36,059 bases of DNA. It comes from Clostridia bacterium (GTDB taxonomy: Bacteria > Bacillota > Clostridia > TANB77 > CAG-508). Shown piece by piece: positions 9,551 through 31,299 of this stretch. Where the stretch lies: NCBI GenBank assembly GCA_022798895.1, contig JAAWNJ010000012.1:1-36059 (forward strand). The letters run 5' to 3'. Numbering within the stretch: position 1 is the stretch's first letter; every line of letters begins with the position of its first letter. The notes under the pieces are model-generated. The model was not told the DNA's origin. It ran no database searches and worked only from the letters and a program-made list of their open reading frames with translations. The translations under genes were made by a program, and so were the position numbers.

Positions 9551-9588
9551 TGTCAGTTTAGGGATGTACCTTAAACTGGCATCTTTTT
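9551..9588. repeat. REP-like palindrome copy B, also terminator-like
   Basis: TGTCAGTTTAGGGATGTACCTTAAACTGGCATCTTTTTT. Confidence 0.6.
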
Positions 9589-9824
9589 TATAAATGTATA
9601 TTATTTAAATCTAAATCCAAAATGTCTTTTATTGCAATCAGTTCATAATCACGAATAAGTCTATTTCCAGCTTCAATCTTAGAAATATCATTTTTTCCAA
9701 TATTAACTCCCAATATTTGCATTTTCGAAGCCAATTTATTCTGAGACATCTTTTTAACTTTCCTATTTTGAGCAATTAAATTCCCTAAGAGATTAGATTT
9801 TTCTTTGTATTTATTAGATTTCAT
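9588..9824 (-). CDS. XRE-family HTH transcriptional regulator
   Basis: LIAQNRKVKKMSQNKLASKMQILGVNIGKNDISKIEAGNRLIRDYELIAIKDIL; SD AGGTGG. Confidence 0.88.
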   Translation of the reverse strand: MKSNKYKEKSNLLGNLIAQNRKVKKMSQNKLASKMQILGVNIGKNDISKIEAGNRLIRDYELIAIKDILDLDLNNIHL

Positions 9825-9845
9825 TTATAATACCACCTTTTTTGT

Positions 9846-9951
9846 TGACATCTCATTAGAATTAATAATAATACTTTTATTAATTATATTGACACTTCAT
9901 TAGAAGAATGCTAATATTATATTAAATGAAATGACACTTCATTAATGTCAT
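9846..9951 (+). promoter_or_regulatory. Predicted promoter and repeated operator-like motifs in the XRE / prepilin-like protein divergent region
   Basis: TTGACA (9889-9894)-17-TAATAT (9912-9917); TGACAYYTCATTA motif three times (9846, 9890-ish, 9932); the last forms dyad ATGACACTTCATTAATGTCAT (9931-9951). Confidence 0.6.
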
Positions 9952-9978
9952 AATGAAAATAGAAAGAAGGAGATACAA

Positions 9979-11808
9979 ATGGAGAAAACGAGAGGTGTTA
10001 CATTAGTTGCTTTAGTAGTAACAATTATTGTACTTTTGATTTTAGCAGGCATAACACTAGTGCATGTATGGGGGGATAACAGTATATTCAAACAAGCATC
10101 AGATGCGAAATTAGAAACAGAATTAACAAAGATAGAAGAAAGAGCAGGATTAATCTATTCAGATAAATGGTTAGAAAAGGTATCAAATAATTCAAACAAT
10201 AAACCAACCATGAAAGAGATAGTCGAAGAGTTAAGAAAAGATGATTATACTATTAAACAAGTGGCAATAAGTGGAAACGAGATAACAGGAATTTCTTTAG
10301 ATAGAGAAAGTATGAGCTTAGGAAAAGAAAAAACAGTTACAATAAAGGTAACATTAGAGAGTTTTGGGGAGTTATATACTTACTATGTTTTAGTAGAAGG
10401 AAAATATTATAAAATGAACTTTAATAGTAGAGCAGTAACCATAGATAGAGCAGAAAGTGATATCTCAGGAAATGTGGAAGAAAAAATCATATTAACAGCA
10501 ACAAGTGAAAATGAAGGAATAGCGACAGTTGTAACAAATAATGATAACAACACAATAGATGTAACAGCAAAAAGTATAGCAGGAACAGTAGACATTACAG
10601 TAACATATGGAAATTTTGAACCTAAAACATGTACAGTAAAAGTATGCGAAGTAACAACAGAGTTAGAAATAGCTTCAGTAAGAGCAAGAATAGCACAAGG
10701 AACAAACAGGTGGTTAGGTGCAGCAGCCAAACCAATAGATACAGCAAGTCAAGAATTCGAATGGAGTAGTAGTGATACAGAAATAGCAACAGTAGATAAT
10801 AAAGGAGTAGTAACAGCGAAAAAAGCAGGAACAACCATTATTACAGTAAAAACAACAGATGGAAGTAATTTAAGTAAAACATGTGAAGTAACAATAGTAG
10901 AAAATGTGCCAGATGTAGCAACCTTAACAGAATTCCAAACCGCGAATACAGTAGCAAAAGATAGTAATGGAAATTTAATTACAGTACCAGGAGATTTCAA
11001 AGTATTAACAGTAGAAGGAACCAAAGTAACAGATGGAATAGTGATTCAAGATAGAGAAGGAAATGAATTTGTATGGGTACCAATAGACTCTGTATCAACA
11101 GGAACCAGTAAAACAGCAGATGATATACGACTAGGAAGATATGAAGATTTTACAACAAAAAATGCAACAGGAAATTATGTACCAAAACAAGATGCAAATA
11201 ATTACACTCAAGAAGTGTCAATAGGTTCTCATATTAAGTATACTTTTATAGAAAGAAGGTACAATTTTGGAAATACAGCATCAAAAAATTTGGAGAATTT
11301 TGTAATGAGAACACAAAAAGATGGAGGATATTATTTGGGAAGATATGAAGTTAGCCAAGGGAATGATAATAAAGCAAAATCACAATATGATAAAGTGGTA
11401 TGGTCAGGTATTACTCAACCTGATGCAGCAAAAAATTGTAAAAATATGTATAATGGAAGTAACTATGTAGAAAGCGATTTAGTAAATTCATATGCATGGG
11501 ATACAACGATTATATTTATTCAAAACTATTCAAAAGGAAATAGTAATTATGCAAATAAGATATCTGTAAACCAAACTAAATTAAACACAGGAAGGGCTGG
11601 AGATAAGGTATGTAATATCAATGATATGGCTTCAAATTTCTTTGAATGGAGCACAGAGAACTGTACGCATCCTGACTTTTGTTGTGTCTTTAGAGGTGGC
11701 AGATATGGTACCCATGGTCCTACTCAAGGGCGTTGCTGGGATTATCCTAAGAGCCCAACTGAAATGCCCGCCTTTAGATCTTTAATCTATACTCTCGAGG
11801 TAAAATAA
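9979..11808 (+). CDS. Prepilin-like N-terminus, Ig-like (BIG2-type) domains and FGE/C-type-lectin-like C-terminal domain; putative surface-displayed ligand-binding protein
   Basis: RGVTLVALVVTIIVLLILAGITL N-terminus; FEWSSSDTEIATVDNKGVVTAKKAGTTIITVKTTD Ig-like; YYLGRYEVS...NDMASNFFEWSTE...VFRGGRYG...AFRSLIY FGE/CLec-type pattern. Confidence 0.8.
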   Translation: MEKTRGVTLVALVVTIIVLLILAGITLVHVWGDNSIFKQASDAKLETELTKIEERAGLIYSDKWLEKVSNNSNNKPTMKEIVEELRKDDYTIKQVAISGNEITGISLDRESMSLGKEKTVTIKVTLESFGELYTYYVLVEGKYYKMNFNSRAVTIDRAESDISGNVEEKIILTATSENEGIATVVTNNDNNTIDVTAKSIAGTVDITVTYGNFEPKTCTVKVCEVTTELEIASVRARIAQGTNRWLGAAAKPIDTASQEFEWSSSDTEIATVDNKGVVTAKKAGTTIITVKTTDGSNLSKTCEVTIVENVPDVATLTEFQTANTVAKDSNGNLITVPGDFKVLTVEGTKVTDGIVIQDREGNEFVWVPIDSVSTGTSKTADDIRLGRYEDFTTKNATGNYVPKQDANNYTQEVSIGSHIKYTFIERRYNFGNTASKNLENFVMRTQKDGGYYLGRYEVSQGNDNKAKSQYDKVVWSGITQPDAAKNCKNMYNGSNYVESDLVNSYAWDTTIIFIQNYSKGNSNYANKISVNQTKLNTGRAGDKVCNINDMASNFFEWSTENCTHPDFCCVFRGGRYGTHGPTQGRCWDYPKSPTEMPAFRSLIYTLEVK

Positions 11809-11814
11809 AAAAAG

Positions 11815-11858
11815 AAAACTACATCACAAGTAACTAAAAGTAAAAGTGATGTAGTTTT
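11815..11858. terminator. Bidirectional terminator between convergent genes
   Basis: AAAACTACATCAC ... GTGATGTAGTTTTTT. Confidence 0.85.
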
Positions 11859-11873
11859 TTAGTTTATAATATT

Positions 11874-15849: not shown

Positions 15850-15868
15850 AAGAAAGAAGGAGTAAGAC

Positions 15869-16402
15869 TTGAAAAAATTTCTTTCCATTTTAGGATTAAT
15901 TTTAACTTTTTTAATGATTTACTTTTTACAAGCTAACTTCTTTACTTGGTTCAATATAGCAGGAGTAAAGCCTAATTTATTTATTGTATTTATCTTATTT
16001 ATAGGGTTATTCATAGGGAATAAATTAGGCTTTGCCTTTGGGCTTATTTTAGGAATCTTATTAGATTTATTTATTGGAAAAAGCATAGGAATATCGGGAT
16101 TAATGTTAGGAATAGTAGGTTTAATAGGAGAATATTTAGATAACAACTTTTCAAAAGACAGTAGAGTAACACTTATTTTAATGGTAATGGGAAGTACAGC
16201 AGTTTGTGAGTTAGGAGTATATCTTTTCCAAACTTTAAGATGGAATACTGCAATAGAAATATTACCTTTCATTAGAACAGTATTCATAGAAGTTATTTTC
16301 AATGTGGTATTAGTTATTATATTATATCCACTTATGCAGAAAGCAGGAAATAGCTTAGAAAGGTTATTTAAAAACAAGTCAGTATTAACAAGATATTTTT
16401 AA
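15869..16402 (+). CDS. mreD: Rod shape-determining protein MreD
   Basis: Polytopic membrane protein (FIGLFIGNKLGFAFGLILGILLDLF) in mreBCD order; TTG start with AAGGAG. Confidence 0.9.
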   Translation: MKKFLSILGLILTFLMIYFLQANFFTWFNIAGVKPNLFIVFILFIGLFIGNKLGFAFGLILGILLDLFIGKSIGISGLMLGIVGLIGEYLDNNFSKDSRVTLILMVMGSTAVCELGVYLFQTLRWNTAIEILPFIRTVFIEVIFNVVLVIILYPLMQKAGNSLERLFKNKSVLTRYF

Positions 16403-20799: not shown

Positions 20800-23700
20800 A
20801 TGAAACTAAAACAAAAATTGATGGCAGCAATTTTAACAGTTATGATGCTAACGAGCTATGTAGCAATATTAACAGATGCAGTTATTGCAGCAGGAATTAA
20901 TTTAGCACAACAGAATAGTAAAACAAATCACACAAATGTTGAATTCAATAGCTACTTCGAAGAAGAAGCACATAGCAAAACTTTTGAAATGGAAGAGGCA
21001 AAACTATATTTAAAATTCAAAGTAAGTAATACAGGCTATCTAAAAAATGGAGTAGTCCAATTTTTAAATGCCAATTTTGAAGTAAATAGTAACAGCTTAA
21101 AACATGATAAAGTACAAAGTAGTAGCAAAGATACTATTTACTTTAAACAAATTAATAATGGTGAGGAAGTAATAGTTGAAGTACCAATTACTATGCTAAA
21201 GGAAGAAAAAGTAGACAACGACTTTTTTAACAAAATGGTGACAACCCGCTTTACAGCAACTTATATGGATGAAAATGGAAAAGAAAAGAATATCGAAAAA
21301 GAAATTTCTAATGAATTAAGTTGGACAGGAAACGCTGAAGTAGAGTTAGCAGGGGAAGTAACCAAGTATTTACCATACCAAGTAGAGAATGAAAAAGGTG
21401 TTATGGTACAAGCAAAAGTAAGAAGTGGATTAAAAGAAAATAACTTACCAGTAAATCAAACAAAATTAGAGGTAAGCTTACCAGAAATAACAATAGCAGA
21501 AGACAAAAATATTAAACCAGAAAGAATTACTGTTATTGCTAATTCAACAGCAGGAACTAATGGAAAAGGTAGTTATGAATTTAATGAAGGAAACTATCAA
21601 TATAATGAAGAAACAGGCAAAATAGAAATTACAGTAGAAAACAAAGAAGAAGATGGAAAAATAGCATGGAATAAAAAGGCAGTAGATGAATACATAGTGA
21701 ATTTCATATTTACAGGTGAAGAAGTATATAATTATGTTTACAATCAATTAGAAAATGCACAAGCAATTACAGGACAAATAGAGGTAAAAGCAGAAATAGA
21801 ACCATACCATAATGAAAAGACAGTTTTAACACAAAGTGGAAAAATTGTTTACAATATTGAAAAGGCAAAAGGTGAATTGATAGATAGTACAATTAGCACA
21901 ATAAGCAAAATGAGCAAAGGCTATATTTATGCAAATTATGCAAAGACAGAAAAAGAAGAAAAGAAAGATACAAGCTATACTGTAAATTACACAGCGCAAG
22001 TTCAAGATAAAACTTTAACAAATGGAATAGAATTTCAAATTGCCACTGAAAAGTATATCGACCAAAACGAAAATGAATATAGTAGTAGATTAAACCAGAA
22101 AGATGGAGTTTATAGTAAAACCATAATTATTTCAGAAGCAATGTTTACAAAAATGTTAGGTGAAGAAGGAAAAATAGAAATCCTTAACAAAGCAGGAGAA
22201 CAATTAGCAGAAGTAACAAAAGCAATAGAAAAAGATAGCAATGGAAATTATGTAATTGACATAACAGAAGCTAAAACAAATGAAATTATCATTAAAACAA
22301 GCAAACCAGTCACAGAGGGAAACATTGAGATAGCAGTAGAAAAGGCAATTGTAGCAAATCAAGAATATAGTAAAGAAGAAATGCAAGCATTCCAAAAAAT
22401 GATACTAGGGCTAACAACTAAATCAGATAATACAGTAATAGAAAAACAAACTCAAATGAATTTAATTGAACCAGTTAGCAAAGCAGAAATTAGTATTGGA
22501 ACACAAAGACTATCTACGATTGTAGAGAATAAAGATGTTGAATTTAGAGTGGTATTAGACACTTCTAGTAATGAAAATGCTTTATATAAAAATCCAACTT
22601 TCCAAATAATATTACCAGAAAACATTGAAACATTAAACATTAAAAGCAGCGACATTTTACTAGATGATGAACTAAAAATAAAAGAAACAAAGGTAGTAGA
22701 ACAAAATGGAAGAAAAGTAATTTTAATTACTTTAACAGGAACACAAACTAAATATATGGATAATGATACTTCAAACAAAGAAGAACAAAGCAATGTGATT
22801 AGTAAAGGGGCTAACATTGTCATCAAAGCAGATATTACATTTAAAAAGTTAACACCAAGTGCAAACTCTAATATTTATTTATATTATACAAATGAAAATA
22901 CAACACTATTTGAGAAGTATTATCAAAAATCAAAAACTAGAAGTATGACAACAGATGTAATGCCAACAGGAATGGCAACAACAGAAGTTGAAATTGTATC
23001 TCCAAATGGAGTAATTGCAGAAAATCATATGTCAGGATTTAAAGCAAATGGAAATATTAGTAATTCATCAGGAGAAAGACAAACTCAAAATATTGATGCA
23101 CATGGAGAAGCAAAAGAAGTAACAATCGGTGGAACAATTGTAAATAACTACGAGAATAGTATTGAAAATGTAGTAATATTAGGAAGAATTCCATTCAGTG
23201 GAAATAAAGCAATAGATGCTACTCAAGAACTTGGAAGTAACTTTACAATGGCAATAAAAGATAAATTAACAACTAGTGGAATTGATAATAGCAAAGTAAG
23301 AGTATATTATAGCACAAATGGAGAAGCAAATAAAAACTTAATGGATACCAATAACAATTGGGTAGAAGAACCAACTAATTTAGCAGAAATTAAAAGTTAT
23401 TTGATTATGATTAGTGGAGAATTAGCAAGAGGAACACAATTTAGCTTTGATTACAAAGTACAATTACCAGCAAATTTAAAATATAATCAAGAAGCATACT
23501 CAAACTATAAAGTATATTATGACAATAAAATGGCAGATGCAACCTTAGGAGAAACAAAGGTTGCAGGTATCATTGGATTAACAACAGGACAAGGACCAGA
23601 ATTACAAGTTAATGTAACTTCTAATAGCAATACAGTAAGAGAAGGACAAATTATTAGAATGACAGCAACTGTAAAAAATATTGGTGGTTTAACAGCGAAA

Positions 23701-25935
23701 AATGCTAGATTAGTAGTTACAGCACCAGAAGGAACTATACACACAGAGATAAAAGAAGGAAGCATTAATTATGAAGAAAGTGAAGATGCTGAGAAAATAA
23801 TTGTATTGGGGGATATTTCTCAAGGGGAAACAACTACAGTAAATTATGAACTAAAAATTAAAAAAGGAAAGAAAATCGTAGAGTCAACTGATGCAGATGG
23901 TAATGTACATAGATTTGAACTTTCAGAATATCCAGGAGATAAAGATATTTCAATAACAGCAAAAATAGTAGCAGATAATTTATCTAATGGAATAACATCT
24001 AATAATTGCACAGTAAGAGTATTAGAAGGTGATTTATCCATTATTACTACTCCAAGATCTGTTGATACTAGAGTAATTAAAATGGGAGATACCGTTAAAT
24101 ACAAGATAGCGGTAGAGAATAATTCTAATAATAAGAATTTAGATAATGTTAAAGTAAATATTAAATTTCCTAAAGGATTTACAATTACAGACTGTTATTA
24201 TGATAAAACGGCTCTATTTTTAGAAAAGAAGAGGGATAACATTACGAAAAATGCTAATAATGCAACTGTTTCCTTAGCGTACTTACACAATGCAAATAAT
24301 TTAGAAGAGGAACATAATGACATACAGGAAAGAATGTATATATTAGTGGAAGCAAAAATGGAAGAACTTTCAGAAGAACATGACATAATTGTAAATGGAG
24401 TAGCAGATGGAATTGAAACGCACTATTCTAATATTAGAACAATAACAACAGGAGCTATTAATCTAAAATTCGAACAAAAAGAATTAAATAATCAATACAT
24501 AAAAGAAGGTAGTAATTATACTTATCAATTTGTACTTGAAAATATAGGAGAAATAGTATCACGTTCAAATAAAATGGAAATGCCAATTCCAGAAGGATTA
24601 AGCTTACAAAAAGCAGAATACATTGAAAAAGGAAAAACAAAAACGAAAAGTGTTACTAAAGATGGAAAGGTAATCATTGATATATTGGAATTAAATCCAG
24701 AAGAAAAGGTAGAAATATTTATCACAGTAAAGGCTAATTTACTTCCAGATAAAAATGATAAAGAAATTATCACAATGGCGACACTGACAGCAGAAGGAAT
24801 TAACCCAATAGAATCGAACAAAGTAAAAGCTATTATTGAATATGATGAAGAAGCACATAAAGAAGAACAAGGTGGAACAAATGAACCATCAAATCCAACA
24901 GGAAGATACAAAATTACAGGAACTGCATGGATAGATGCAAATAGAGATGGTAAAAGAGATGATACAGAAGAAGTATTATCGAATGTACAAGTCGTTCTAT
25001 TATATAAATCTAACAGCCAAATTGTAAAAGACGAAATAACAGGAGCAGAAAAGATTACAACAACAAATAGTAGTGGAAAATATGAATTTTCTAACTTAAA
25101 ACCAGATGAATATTTAGTATTATTCTTATATGATGCAGGAAAATATAGTATTACAGATTACAAAAAAGAGGGAGTAGCAGAAAGCGTTAATTCAGATGCA
25201 ACTAGTATGAAAATTGTATTAAATGGAGAACAAAGACAAGCTGGTGTAAGTAATACCATTAAAATTACAAATAATAATGTTAGAGATATTGATATTGGAC
25301 TATTTGTAGCAGAAAAATTTGATTTAAGATTAGACAAATATATTAGTAAAGTAACTACAACAACACCAAGCAATGGAACTAAAACATATAATTATAATAA
25401 TTCAAAAATAACAAAACGTGAAATTGCAGGTAAAGATGTAGGAAATAGTAGTTTAGTAGTAGAATACAAAATTGTTGCAACAAATGAAGGACAAGTAGAA
25501 GGATATGTTAAGAAAATTATTGATTACTTACCAGATGGTGCAAAATTTAGCAGTGAATTAAATAAAGATTGGTATATAGCAGATAATAATGGAGCAGTGT
25601 ATAATACCGCTTTAGAGAATGAAAAACTTGCCCCAGGAGAAAGTAAAGAAGTAAGACTAGTATTAAGCTTTACAATTAATAACAAAAGTATTGGAAAAAT
25701 GATTAATAACAATGCAGAGATCTATGAAAGCTATAATGAGTTAGGTTTAGAAGACATTGATTCAATTGCAGCCAATAGACTAGAATCAGAAGATGATATG
25801 TCAAGTGCAGATATTATAGTTTCAGTAGCAACTGGTAGAATTATTATTTATACAACTTTTGCATTAGCAGTAATAGCATTACTAGGTTTCGGAGTTTTCG
25901 AAATAAAAAAGCATGTTCTAAATAGAAAAGATTAA
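20800..25935 (+). CDS. Giant secreted surface protein with repeated DUF11/CARDB-like and SdrD_B-like domains, C-terminal TM anchor
   Basis: Signal peptide; VREGQIIRMTATVKNIGGLTAKNARLVVTAPEG, GTAWIDANRDGKRDDTEEVLSNVQVVLLYKSN...SGKYEFSNLKPDEYLVLF; C-terminal IIIYTTFALAVIALLGFGVFEIKKHVLNRKD. Confidence 0.85.
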   Translation: MKLKQKLMAAILTVMMLTSYVAILTDAVIAAGINLAQQNSKTNHTNVEFNSYFEEEAHSKTFEMEEAKLYLKFKVSNTGYLKNGVVQFLNANFEVNSNSLKHDKVQSSSKDTIYFKQINNGEEVIVEVPITMLKEEKVDNDFFNKMVTTRFTATYMDENGKEKNIEKEISNELSWTGNAEVELAGEVTKYLPYQVENEKGVMVQAKVRSGLKENNLPVNQTKLEVSLPEITIAEDKNIKPERITVIANSTAGTNGKGSYEFNEGNYQYNEETGKIEITVENKEEDGKIAWNKKAVDEYIVNFIFTGEEVYNYVYNQLENAQAITGQIEVKAEIEPYHNEKTVLTQSGKIVYNIEKAKGELIDSTISTISKMSKGYIYANYAKTEKEEKKDTSYTVNYTAQVQDKTLTNGIEFQIATEKYIDQNENEYSSRLNQKDGVYSKTIIISEAMFTKMLGEEGKIEILNKAGEQLAEVTKAIEKDSNGNYVIDITEAKTNEIIIKTSKPVTEGNIEIAVEKAIVANQEYSKEEMQAFQKMILGLTTKSDNTVIEKQTQMNLIEPVSKAEISIGTQRLSTIVENKDVEFRVVLDTSSNENALYKNPTFQIILPENIETLNIKSSDILLDDELKIKETKVVEQNGRKVILITLTGTQTKYMDNDTSNKEEQSNVISKGANIVIKADITFKKLTPSANSNIYLYYTNENTTLFEKYYQKSKTRSMTTDVMPTGMATTEVEIVSPNGVIAENHMSGFKANGNISNSSGERQTQNIDAHGEAKEVTIGGTIVNNYENSIENVVILGRIPFSGNKAIDATQELGSNFTMAIKDKLTTSGIDNSKVRVYYSTNGEANKNLMDTNNNWVEEPTNLAEIKSYLIMISGELARGTQFSFDYKVQLPANLKYNQEAYSNYKVYYDNKMADATLGETKVAGIIGLTTGQGPELQVNVTSNSNTVREGQIIRMTATVKNIGGLTAKNARLVVTAPEGTIHTEIKEGSINYEESEDAEKIIVLGDISQGETTTVNYELKIKKGKKIVESTDADGNVHRFELSEYPGDKDISITAKIVADNLSNGITSNNCTVRVLEGDLSIITTPRSVDTRVIKMGDTVKYKIAVENNSNNKNLDNVKVNIKFPKGFTITDCYYDKTALFLEKKRDNITKNANNATVSLAYLHNANNLEEEHNDIQERMYILVEAKMEELSEEHDIIVNGVADGIETHYSNIRTITTGAINLKFEQKELNNQYIKEGSNYTYQFVLENIGEIVSRSNKMEMPIPEGLSLQKAEYIEKGKTKTKSVTKDGKVIIDILELNPEEKVEIFITVKANLLPDKNDKEIITMATLTAEGINPIESNKVKAIIEYDEEAHKEEQGGTNEPSNPTGRYKITGTAWIDANRDGKRDDTEEVLSNVQVVLLYKSNSQIVKDEITGAEKITTTNSSGKYEFSNLKPDEYLVLFLYDAGKYSITDYKKEGVAESVNSDATSMKIVLNGEQRQAGVSNTIKITNNNVRDIDIGLFVAEKFDLRLDKYISKVTTTTPSNGTKTYNYNNSKITKREIAGKDVGNSSLVVEYKIVATNEGQVEGYVKKIIDYLPDGAKFSSELNKDWYIADNNGAVYNTALENEKLAPGESKEVRLVLSFTINNKSIGKMINNNAEIYESYNELGLEDIDSIAANRLESEDDMSSADIIVSVATGRIIIYTTFALAVIALLGFGVFEIKKHVLNRKD

Positions 25936-25953
25936 AGGAAGGGAGGAAAGGAT

Positions 25954-28900
25954 ATGATAAAGGAAAAACGAAAAAGTTATTTATTAGGAATTATCATTTT
26001 GGCTATATTAGCAGTAATAGCCATAGTACCGAATATGATTCTTTCTCTCACTAATGAAATGACGAAGGTTTCAGCAAAAAAGTTAGCAGCAGATAGAAAA
26101 TATGAAATAGAAGAGATTGCAAATAATACTTATACAGAAGCAGATGGGACTCCTTATCTAGAAATTAAGCAGTTTGCTTTTGAACATGGGGAATATGGTA
26201 TAGCACATTATCCAGGAAAGGTATTATATTGTATTCAACACGGTGTTGAATTTAAAGGTAGAGATAAAAAGATAACGCTTGAACAAGTAGCTCCCTATGG
26301 AGATATATATAATCCAGGTAGCTGGATACAACAAAGAATACATATATGTACAAGAGGTCCTCATGGTCCTTTGACTTATAATGGTAAAAGGACATATCCA
26401 GTGTTATGGTGTGTTAACCATCATTATAATGTAGTAACAAGTGACAATTATATACCAGATGCAGGATATATTATCACTTATCCTAGTACAAGTGATGTTA
26501 CACAAGAAAAGCAATATGCCTTATATAATACAGATATAAATACAGGCAAAGAGGAAGCCCCAAATGCAATATATTATGAGGCTGTAGCCTATAGAGAATT
26601 TCATGATCAAACAACAGATTATGGAACAAATGTAGATGAGTCAGATATTAAAATAGAAGATAAAACAGAGTTAAATGAAATAGTAATTAAGGCAGATAAC
26701 AATGAGAAGAGCTTAATAGTAGGACCATTTTCAATTGATTATATTTATGGCTATTATGAAGATAAAAACATTGCCTTTGGAGGAATTTCAGATATGTACC
26801 TTGTTGGATATAACTCACAAGGTGGCATTGTAAAACCAAAGATAGAAATAAAAAAATATATTGATCCAAAAGGAAAAGGATATGAATTAGAATATTTTGA
26901 GCCAAATGAAGAGGATGGATCTTATGTAGATAGAACAAAACAAGTTTATCCAAAAGGAAGATCAGCAGGTGAGGACTTTTTCGAAGTAAAAATAGATAAC
27001 CCAAATGCTGGTTTACCATCAGATGCAGATGAAAGTTCATATGTAGCATATTGTAAGTTGAAAATTGAATTTCAATGGATGACAGTAACTTCAGCAGCTC
27101 TTTGCGAAAAAGAAGCAATCGTATATAGAGTTGAGTGGAAAGTAGAGCCAGTTGATACACATGAACACTGTTATGAAACTTCAGATGGAGAAGAAGTTTG
27201 CTGGACATGTAGTCACTGTAAAGAGTCTTCTACAGTCTTTGAAGACGAGGTTCAAGATCACATAGAGGTGTTAGAAGGTCAAAGAAAATTATTCAAAGCA
27301 ACACTAACAATACCAGATGATGATATTCCAATAGAAGACATAGAAGATATACTAATACCACTTACAATGGACTTAGGTGGAAAAGTTTGGGAAGACATGC
27401 CAGATGGAAAAGAAAGTTTAACAGATGGAAAATATACACAAAATGACAGAGTAATGCCAAATGTAAAAGTTACATTATATGCAGAAGATGGAAAAATAGC
27501 AACACTATTATCTAATTCAAAAAAACCAGGCATTTCAGACCAAGACGTAATGAGTAGAGTAAATCCAACTTATACAGATGAAAAAGGAGATTATTTATTC
27601 AAAGGATTAGACCCATTAAAGAAGTACTATGTACAATTTGAATATAATGGACAAGTATACTTGCCAACAGACTACGAGAAAAATGATGGAGCATATAATC
27701 GAGTTGATTGGTTCTGGACTTCAAAGGGAACAGAAAAAGACAGTGATAGAGATAATTATGACAAAACTTACTCAGAAATAGGATCAAGTCCAGCAAACTA
27801 TCTAGTGCCAAGCGGATCGATGAAGATTGCACCATTAACCAATGGTTATAACGAATCCTTCTCACAATATGATTTAATGGGCTTCAAGATGACAGAAGAC
27901 GGAGACTATGCTCAAGAAACCAGATTAATAGATAGCTTCTACAAAATTGAAGGAGGCAACATTGTAGAGACAAATGAAAATCAAGAAGGAGAAATCTCAA
28001 AAGCAATTAAAGACTTCATAAAGCAGTATAAAAGATCACCAAAAGAAGGCGATATGTTAAATATTTATAAAAAAATCGCTGGTGGTGATGAGGAACTACT
28101 AAGAAAGATGCAGTTTATTGAGGACATCAAAATAAAGTCTTATACAAAGGCAATGAATACTACAAAATATGATTTATATCCAATCTATGATCCTGGTACA
28201 TTTATTATCAACAAAACAAGGAATATGAAATATACAAATGCTGAAGAAGCTAGAAGTTTAAGTTATGATCTGAAAGTAAAAGTAATAGATGGTGTTACTT
28301 ATAAACCAATTTACCCAGGACAATTCTATATTAACCAAGGTTTATGGAGAAGACAAGAAGTAGATTTAGCTTTAAGAAAAGATGTGCTTTATGCAGCAAC
28401 TAGAATTAACGGAAAAACAGAAGTATATGAATACAATAAGAGAGATTTACTTACACCTGAACAAAAAGAAGAATTAAGACAGCTAAGATTAAAATATGAG
28501 CAAAATGGAAGAAGACCAGACGATTATCAGAAATACTTAGACAAAAAAGCAGAATTTGAAAAGGCAAACTTAGAGGGGCAACATGGTGGATATTGGCAAA
28601 TTCAACTAAGAATGAGAGACTACAATAATTACTATACAGGTATTCATACAAGAGAACTTTATGAAGCAGATTATAATTATAGGCAAAATAGTACTAATAA
28701 ATCAGGAAAAGATTTAGAGCTATATGTAACTTATAAAATTACAGTAAGAAATGTTTCACAAAGTATACTAGGTGAAATAACAGAAATTGTAGATTACTAT
28801 GATAGAGACTATATTTACAGAGACGATTTATCTTGGGTAATGTATAAAAATCGTAGTGATAGTAATGATTTAAATGAAATCAACTTTACAGAAGCAGAAT

Positions 28901-31299
28901 ATTATGACACTATTCATGAAGGAGCATTACGAGGAAGCATTAGCAATAATAACAAAGGAACAGATAGTGCTACAAACGGAAGATATGAAAAGGATAGAAG
29001 TTCAAAATGTAGAAGTGATATGACATCAGACTACGATGCTATTTATATTAAAGGACTAGAAAATAAAAAGCTAGCTAGTGGAGAAGAAGCATACATTTAC
29101 TTAACATTCCAAGTAAAATCAGATGATAAGGGACCAGTTATTGTAGATGATGATAAGAGCCTAAAAGAAAACTATGTAGAAATCAATGGTTACAAAACTT
29201 ACTACAAAGATGGAACAAGCTTACCAAATGGTGTAACCAAAGGAAGCGGAGATGTAGCAGGATTAATCGATATCAACTCAACACCAGGTAACTTATGTAA
29301 GAAGGACTTAGAAGGAGATAAATACGAGAAGAACTTTGAAAATGATACAGATCGTGCAAAAAGTGTTAAAGTAATTGTAGAGGAAGATTTCATCAGAAGC
29401 ATTAATGGTACCGTATGGGAAGACGAAAGAACAGAAAATGTATCTAACTCTATGATAGGAGACGGTATCAGAAAAGATGGAGAGTTAGGAGTTAATGGAG
29501 TAACAGTAGAACTAGTAGAAAAACTAGAAAATGGTAAAGAATTCTTGTGGCAAACTACTCAATCTGGTTCAGGTAAAGGCAGAAGAGTAAACTTGAAAAC
29601 AGGACAGCCAGAAGACTATACTTATAAAGTTAAAAATAGAGGCTATTATGAATTTTCAGAATCCATTACAGGTAACTATATCATTAGATTCCATTATGGA
29701 GACAAAACATTAACAGTACAAACTGACAGCAATGGAGGAAGTAACGCTACATCCTATAACGGTCAAGACTTTAAATCAACTCTATATCAAACAGATATCA
29801 AACAAGATGGAAAGACAGACAGATTAGGAAATTACTTTGGTTATACTGATACAGAAAAACAAAACGAAACTGGAACAGGACCTTATGGAACCATTGGAGC
29901 TTATGGATACGACATTCATGCAGCAGACAGCCTCGGTAAAAATGTATCAGATGCAAAAGATATTTGGTCATATAGACAAAAAACTATTGAATATAGTAAC
30001 AACAAAGTAACAAACCATATAGCAGAAGTACTAGCAGCACCATATACAGAGAATGCGAAAAAAGCAGATATGATACAAGAATTAATCGACAGGACGCAAA
30101 TGGTAGCAGAAACAGGTGTCATTGTATTAGAAGGTGAGTATAACAGAACTGGTACAGATGGATATTATAAAGAAAATGGAAATGGTAATACAGTTAGTAA
30201 CGGAAGCTCAGGATATTTACATGGTAATGACGTAAATGGAAATTACACATTAAATAATGTAGACTTTGGATTAGCTGAAAGACCAAAAGCACAATTAGAA
30301 TTGGGCAAAAAGATAACCAATGTCCAAATCAAATTAGCTAATGGAAACATTCTATTTGATGCGAATAAAGGAATGACAGACTTAATGTGGACACCAGGAA
30401 CACCATATGAACTAAACGACGTAGGTATTATAGATAGTAATAAGGACAATAAATACCAACAATTCTATAGCTTAAATAACCATCGTTATACTTACAGAAC
30501 ACAACAAGGTACTAAAGCATACAGTGTTAATGGACTAGTTGCAAGTAAATATAAAAACAATGGAAACAATGGATCAATTGTAGCAACGATGGACGAAGAG
30601 TTAATGCAAGGTGCGAATATCACAATTAGTTACCTATTAACAGTTACTAACGTAGGTGAAACAGATTATGAAGGAGAAGAGTTCTACTACTTAGGAGAAG
30701 GAGCAAACACAGTGGTTACAACGAGAGCTGATGTAGTAACCGATTATGTAGCAAACAACCTAAACTTTAATGAAAATACTAAAAACAATAATGAAGATAG
30801 TACTACAAATAAAGAAAATGGTTGGAAGATAACAAATAATGTATTAACTACATTAGGGCTTAACAACAATTTAGCAACTAAAGTATCACAATATAATAAT
30901 GTTATTAACACCGAAAATCTACATGATGAACTAATACCAGTAGACTCAAAGAGCAAGCAGCATGCAAATAGCTCAACCGTAGGATTAGTATTAACACAAT
31001 TAATCAATCCAGAGAACAGCACAGATGATAAAACATATGACAATGTTGCAGAAATCACTACTATTTCAAATACAGTAGGTAGAAGAATGGCATACTCAAT
31101 TCAAGGTAACCAAGACCCAACTGCAGATGCAAGTGAAGAAGGAAAATTTGAAGTAGACGCAGTGAAATCAGAAAGAGTAACCATTTTACCACCATTTGGT
31201 ATTGGAAATACAGTAGTATATATCGCAATAGCAGTAAGTGTTTTAGTTATCTTAGCAGGAGGAATTATTCTCATCAAGAGAAAGGTACTAAATAAATAG
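25954..31299 (+). CDS. Giant secreted surface protein with SdrD_B-like domains, C-terminal TM anchor
   Basis: N-terminal TM; GGKVWEDMPDGKESLTDGKYTQNDRVMPNVKVTLY...GDYLFKGLDPLKKYYVQFEY; GTVWEDERTENVSNSMIGDGIRKDGELGVNGVTVEL; C-terminal TM and KRKVLNK. Confidence 0.85.
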   Translation: MIKEKRKSYLLGIIILAILAVIAIVPNMILSLTNEMTKVSAKKLAADRKYEIEEIANNTYTEADGTPYLEIKQFAFEHGEYGIAHYPGKVLYCIQHGVEFKGRDKKITLEQVAPYGDIYNPGSWIQQRIHICTRGPHGPLTYNGKRTYPVLWCVNHHYNVVTSDNYIPDAGYIITYPSTSDVTQEKQYALYNTDINTGKEEAPNAIYYEAVAYREFHDQTTDYGTNVDESDIKIEDKTELNEIVIKADNNEKSLIVGPFSIDYIYGYYEDKNIAFGGISDMYLVGYNSQGGIVKPKIEIKKYIDPKGKGYELEYFEPNEEDGSYVDRTKQVYPKGRSAGEDFFEVKIDNPNAGLPSDADESSYVAYCKLKIEFQWMTVTSAALCEKEAIVYRVEWKVEPVDTHEHCYETSDGEEVCWTCSHCKESSTVFEDEVQDHIEVLEGQRKLFKATLTIPDDDIPIEDIEDILIPLTMDLGGKVWEDMPDGKESLTDGKYTQNDRVMPNVKVTLYAEDGKIATLLSNSKKPGISDQDVMSRVNPTYTDEKGDYLFKGLDPLKKYYVQFEYNGQVYLPTDYEKNDGAYNRVDWFWTSKGTEKDSDRDNYDKTYSEIGSSPANYLVPSGSMKIAPLTNGYNESFSQYDLMGFKMTEDGDYAQETRLIDSFYKIEGGNIVETNENQEGEISKAIKDFIKQYKRSPKEGDMLNIYKKIAGGDEELLRKMQFIEDIKIKSYTKAMNTTKYDLYPIYDPGTFIINKTRNMKYTNAEEARSLSYDLKVKVIDGVTYKPIYPGQFYINQGLWRRQEVDLALRKDVLYAATRINGKTEVYEYNKRDLLTPEQKEELRQLRLKYEQNGRRPDDYQKYLDKKAEFEKANLEGQHGGYWQIQLRMRDYNNYYTGIHTRELYEADYNYRQNSTNKSGKDLELYVTYKITVRNVSQSILGEITEIVDYYDRDYIYRDDLSWVMYKNRSDSNDLNEINFTEAEYYDTIHEGALRGSISNNNKGTDSATNGRYEKDRSSKCRSDMTSDYDAIYIKGLENKKLASGEEAYIYLTFQVKSDDKGPVIVDDDKSLKENYVEINGYKTYYKDGTSLPNGVTKGSGDVAGLIDINSTPGNLCKKDLEGDKYEKNFENDTDRAKSVKVIVEEDFIRSINGTVWEDERTENVSNSMIGDGIRKDGELGVNGVTVELVEKLENGKEFLWQTTQSGSGKGRRVNLKTGQPEDYTYKVKNRGYYEFSESITGNYIIRFHYGDKTLTVQTDSNGGSNATSYNGQDFKSTLYQTDIKQDGKTDRLGNYFGYTDTEKQNETGTGPYGTIGAYGYDIHAADSLGKNVSDAKDIWSYRQKTIEYSNNKVTNHIAEVLAAPYTENAKKADMIQELIDRTQMVAETGVIVLEGEYNRTGTDGYYKENGNGNTVSNGSSGYLHGNDVNGNYTLNNVDFGLAERPKAQLELGKKITNVQIKLANGNILFDANKGMTDLMWTPGTPYELNDVGIIDSNKDNKYQQFYSLNNHRYTYRTQQGTKAYSVNGLVASKYKNNGNNGSIVATMDEELMQGANITISYLLTVTNVGETDYEGEEFYYLGEGANTVVTTRADVVTDYVANNLNFNENTKNNNEDSTTNKENGWKITNNVLTTLGLNNNLATKVSQYNNVINTENLHDELIPVDSKSKQHANSSTVGLVLTQLINPENSTDDKTYDNVAEITTISNTVGRRMAYSIQGNQDPTADASEEGKFEVDAVKSERVTILPPFGIGNTVVYIAIAVSVLVILAGGIILIKRKVLNK

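Follow-up and report, generated by a model that had tools for sequence, protein, structure and literature searches.

The gene at positions 9979..11808 of the window (the whole stretch of DNA analysed, 36,059 nucleotides, contig C33 of its assembly) is likely, judging from its sequence, to be a member of a family of genes targeted by diversity-generating retroelements (DGRs). We think it probable that this gene is a remote DGR target, with a C-terminal FGE/C-lectin-like tip whose variable region (VR) of ~125 nt would have been written in trans by an earlier template, of the type found on contig C48, that is now lost, replaced or unassembled, the tail being a frozen orphan VR. The host is a gut bacterium of a genus within Clostridia, and its genome (G000; 1.93 Mb in 135 contigs, 97.7% complete) was compared with relatives sampled as one genome per species.

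The target gene and the boundary of its tail

9979..11808, + strand: putative DGR-type variable surface protein, 609-aa ORF, presence confirmed
9979..10080, + strand: hydrophobic prepilin-like N-terminal segment (sequence; motif also in paralogues)
10672..10890, + strand: Big_2 Ig-like domain (Pfam PF02368, E 3.9e-13)
11227..11656, + strand: putative FGE-like C-terminal domain, constant part common to paralogues (alignment; DNA identity 59-81%)
11657..11784, + strand: candidate VR, orphan (composition, paralogue divergence; template searches negative)

The first-pass annotation had proposed a protein that combines a membrane or pilin-like anchor, an Ig-like stalk and a hypervariable tip. The reading frame is real and the translation of its tail agrees with the one given there, the Ig-like stalk is supported by the Big_2 match (residues 232-304), and the N-terminus, GVTLVALVVTIIVLLILAGI, is hydrophobic and prepilin-like, but it has no Pfam pilin match, and the NCBIfam ComGF model reaches 13 bits, far under its cut-off of 80. 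The description of the C-terminus as FGE/C-type-lectin-like is less secure for this protein: PF03781 (FGE-like) matches 3 of the 16 aligned paralogues, the window protein not being among them, and a profile of the C-terminal domain weakly picks up GldK/PorK lipoproteins (E 0.002-0.003), whereas no Pfam model matches this domain in the window protein itself. An AlphaFold prediction from the 16 sequences gave a pLDDT of 37, too low for use.

The abrupt rise in GC content that had been noticed at the end of the gene was borne out by measurement. The stretch 11650-11799 has a GC content of 46.7%, compared with 27-35% in the preceding 500 bases and 23-27% after it, and the rise is accompanied by a depletion of adenine (the AT skew changes sign, from about +0.2 to -0.10) and by an increase in NNY codons, from 36% earlier in the ORF to 67% over its last 52 codons. 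The switch starts at ~11657. With NNY 0.73, GC 0.48 and A 0.22, the composition of the tail is nearly that of the VRs that have been matched to a template (NNY 0.79-0.89, GC 0.45-0.55, A 0.19-0.25). Two paralogues, C59 (L026:4242) and C1 (L034:4464), have AT-rich tails (GC 0.37-0.38, A 0.32-0.36) and look non-diversified.

Identity among paralogues falls at the same codon as the composition break, and this is the codon where template-matched VRs begin. DNA homology to ~14 paralogues is shared over 11600-11657, extends to 11657-11666 and mostly ends there; identity in the constant part (last ~258 bases) is 59-81%, mostly 70-81%, compared with 41-60% in the tail. In the alignment of 16 C-terminal domains, a conserved core is followed by a tail in which RGG and a few positions, aromatic or F-R, are all that is conserved. 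The similarity of the window tail to other VRs is 51, a value that codon-shuffled copies of the tail do not attain (at most 43); no VR closely related to it occurs in its own genome. A first search of the genome contigs with the window protein itself as query gave no match; the family profile yields 22 matches in this genome (about 20 copies), and it finds the family in 27 of 30 genomes of the genus, with a maximum of 31 matches in one of them. The window gene is homologous to template-matched targets that carry their VR at the same place.

DGR machinery and the search for a template

An RVT_1 search located reverse transcriptases (RTs) on contigs C122, C90, C48 and C17, and only those of C48 and C17 are of the DGR type. 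Each of these two has 352 aa and is preceded by an Avd-like protein (bAvd matches with E 8.5e-12 and 7e-22, respectively); relatives such as G003 have up to five DGR-type RTs. The order on C48 is target gene, Avd-like protein, RT and template, with an RT-14 RNA after the template, and a MutS domain I precedes the Avd-like protein as part of the same fusion (PF01624, E 4e-10). MutS-like accessory genes of DGRs have reportedly been covered by a survey.

L003:2345-2839, - strand: MutS_I-Avd fusion beside the C48 DGR RT (Pfam)

The C48 template differs from the VR of its own contig at 25 of 53 adenines and 2 of 83 other positions (p 1e-10), from that of C129 at 22 of 53 and 1 of 83 (p 6e-10), and from that of C78 at 28 of 53 and 14 of 83 (p 1e-5). 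Over the VRs on C48, C129, C9 (two), C91 and C78, most of the differences fall on adenines (p 2e-4 to 1e-10). The C48 system is a multi-target DGR, and the comparison shows that a DGR of this type diversifies the family of the window gene in this genome. The second DGR, on C17 (L017), comprises a target with the tail GW.GA..W...GF.RG.GG.FSF..CGRGVAVVGTGL, Avd, RT and, after these, a further prepilin-like gene, and it has no clean template next to the RT.

The first-pass annotation had suggested looking for a DGR-type RT and a template, and both, together with Avd, are located on C48; the repeat that it predicted, matching about 11650-11800 except at adenines, was not found in scans of the own genome. 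No template for the window VR was obtained with adenine-tolerant patterns over this whole genome (up to 3 mismatches), with gapped adenine-tolerant scans of its own DGR loci, of 20 DGR regions of the genus and of 80 DGR loci from Clostridia MAGs, with a pattern search of 292 genomes of the family (low-complexity matches occurred at the control rate) or with BLAST against 390 family genomes, and none of the templates flanked by RT-14 fits; a template more divergent than these searches tolerate could escape pattern, gapped and BLAST scans. The adenine-tolerant matches to the window VR in loci of this genome and the genus, ungapped and gapped, are A-rich chance matches, and a match of 17 bases close to the RT of C48 was dropped (other strand, E 2.3). 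A short hairpin considered as a feature after the VR was also rejected: it follows the C48 VR and is missing after the window VR and most others. Because no template was found, adenine-directed differences are not demonstrated for the window VR; the claim that the gene is a DGR target draws instead on the RTs, Avd and templates of the genome, on paralogues with A-directed differences, and on the position and composition of the tail.

This genome has further orphan VRs, judging from those of its loci that were read. The C22 VR fits a template of G003 (mismatches at 25 of 46 adenines and 6 of 81 other positions, p 6.5e-9), and none of the templates read in its own genome fits nearly as well; the C65/C11 VRs have template matches in G011/G007 and among the MAG loci. 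Orphan VRs are therefore nothing unusual in the genus, through template loss, replacement or assembly gaps.

Stand-alone cassettes and the history of the locus

The RNA that lies after the templates belongs to the Rfam family RT-14 (RF02921; 64-71 bits, gathering threshold 48.1). Its model finds 6 copies in the own genome, 7 in G015 and 20 in G003, and next to most of them no RT was found. The stand-alone cassettes, made up of a template, RT-14 RNA and a hairpin terminator, number five in the own genome besides C48; only one RT-14 template there is of the FGE type.

L027 (C84 ~15855-16110), L303, L304, L305, L306; L179; L307-L317 of G003: stand-alone cassettes (RT-14 RNA and terminator)

The template parts of the cassettes encode in-frame ends of a second target type, and some of them are asparagine-rich and template-like. 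When C29, C39 and C64c of G003 are set against asparagine-rich cassettes, mismatches are enriched at adenines, with p down to 2e-5 in a test that covers many pairs and is inflated by the A-richness of the reference. In these data of one genome per species, the pattern suggests that mutated cDNA may enter cassettes as well as genes. As a tentative proposal, to which we give clearly less than even weight, the genus would disperse its templates over the chromosome in the form of stand-alone cassettes, each with template, RT-14 RNA and terminator, mutated cDNA would home there too, templates would diversify and archive variants, and cassettes and targets would swap places, as at the window locus. 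No published report of dispersed RT-14 template cassettes was found in the open-licence literature.

9588..9824, - strand: divergent short helix-turn-helix (HTH) protein, 78 aa (Pfam HTH_19, E 6e-4, below cut-off; missing in six relatives)
9845..9950, no strand: TGACAYYTCATTA, repeated three times between the HTH gene and the target gene; possible operators (sequence; predicted function)
11797..11860, + strand: stand-alone DGR template cassette, tail and hairpin terminator (alignment to cassette tails; orthologous to the G015 cassette)

In six relatives the flanking M23 peptidase and mecA genes are present but 9590-11799 is not: the target gene is a lineage-specific insert, and the HTH gene lies within it. 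In the same interval the closest relative, G015, has a stand-alone C17-type template, RT-14 RNA and hairpin terminator, all intact. Window positions 11797-11860 align with this terminator and with those of other stand-alone cassettes, so that the gene end (last codons, stop and terminator) is built on a cassette remnant. The target gene would have entered the M23-peptidase/mecA interval in its own lineage, at a site that held such a cassette, and would read into the cassette tail for its stop and terminator. Upstream, the HTH gene and the TGACAYYTCATTA repeats (9588-9950) suggest that the target gene may have its own regulation. A divergent HTH regulator shared by all targets was rejected: among the upstream regions checked, an HTH-like gene occurs only at the window gene and at G003:C10. 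A hairpin-like repeat, GTCAGTTTAGGGATGTACCTTAAACTGGCATC, lies at 9551-9582, with about a dozen related copies scattered over the genome.

Origin of the tail and related systems

In the explanation that we favour, an earlier template of the C48 kind would have written the window tail by mutagenic retrohoming and would later have been lost, replaced or left unassembled; with its template gone, the tail would at present be frozen. It is rather unlikely that the VR remains active, with its template merely missing from a fragmented assembly. Contigs C48, C17, C84, C91, C92 and C129 each have an end that falls within or close to a target gene, which indicates that repeats broke the assembly, and both the multiple RTs of G003-type relatives (up to five) and the VR-like composition that the window VR retains agree with activity; against it stand the two DGR-type RTs and single FGE-type RT-14 template of the assembly, the failure to find a matching template in the relatives searched, and the lack of a close sibling of the window VR in the genome.

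Another possibility, to which we give little credence, is that no DGR ever wrote the tail, which would be just the ordinary, rapidly diverging end of an FGE-like domain and would owe its composition to horizontal origin or drift. No template was found and some paralogues (C59, C1) look non-diversified, but the AT-rich tails of these are unlike that of the window, whose composition break coincides with the VR boundary of template-matched targets, in DNA that is 59-81% identical just upstream. It is highly improbable that the C48 template wrote this VR long ago and that drift has since made the match unrecognisable. The identity between the two is 60% at non-A and 37% at A positions (p 0.013, in a poor alignment), which counts in favour; against it, the alignment requires gaps, the RGG codons differ, and the constant flank still shares 73-81% identity with genes of the C48 lineage, a level of conservation at which drift by itself would not have wiped out the tail.

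DGRs with more than one VR, and targets at a distance from the RT, have already been described (PMC6642488, PMC7517822, PMC10907252). The remote variable proteins of cyanobacteria, which were called by template homology (PMC7517822), and of Thiohalocapsa PB-PSB1 (PMC10907252) are like the present ones in that targets lie away from the RT, the VR is 3' in a C-lectin/FGE-like domain, a putative one in the present case, and diversification in trans is proposed; the present targets differ in being prepilin-like surface proteins of Clostridia, and in that the window VR has no template. With the BPP-1 Mtd DGR the present system shares RT, Avd, template, C-terminal VR and adenine-directed change, whereas here the template is found 3' of the RT with the RT-14 RNA behind it, Avd forms a fusion with a MutS domain I and there are many targets. 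The RNA is the same as Rfam RT-14, but here it is tied to templates, also in stand-alone cassettes away from any RT found. If these readings are true, a genus of gut Clostridia maintains up to ~20 or more dispersed, surface-displayed targets in each genome, served by one or a few DGRs; some of these targets have outlived their templates, which makes the persistence of a diversified tip after template loss testable. It would likewise be testable whether a template can be a free-standing RNA gene that acts, and is mutated, in trans.

Elsewhere in the window, 20800-31299 holds two adjacent, very large surface proteins: one of 1711 aa with DUF11 and SdrD_B domains, and a neighbour of 1781 aa with a weak SdrD_B match.
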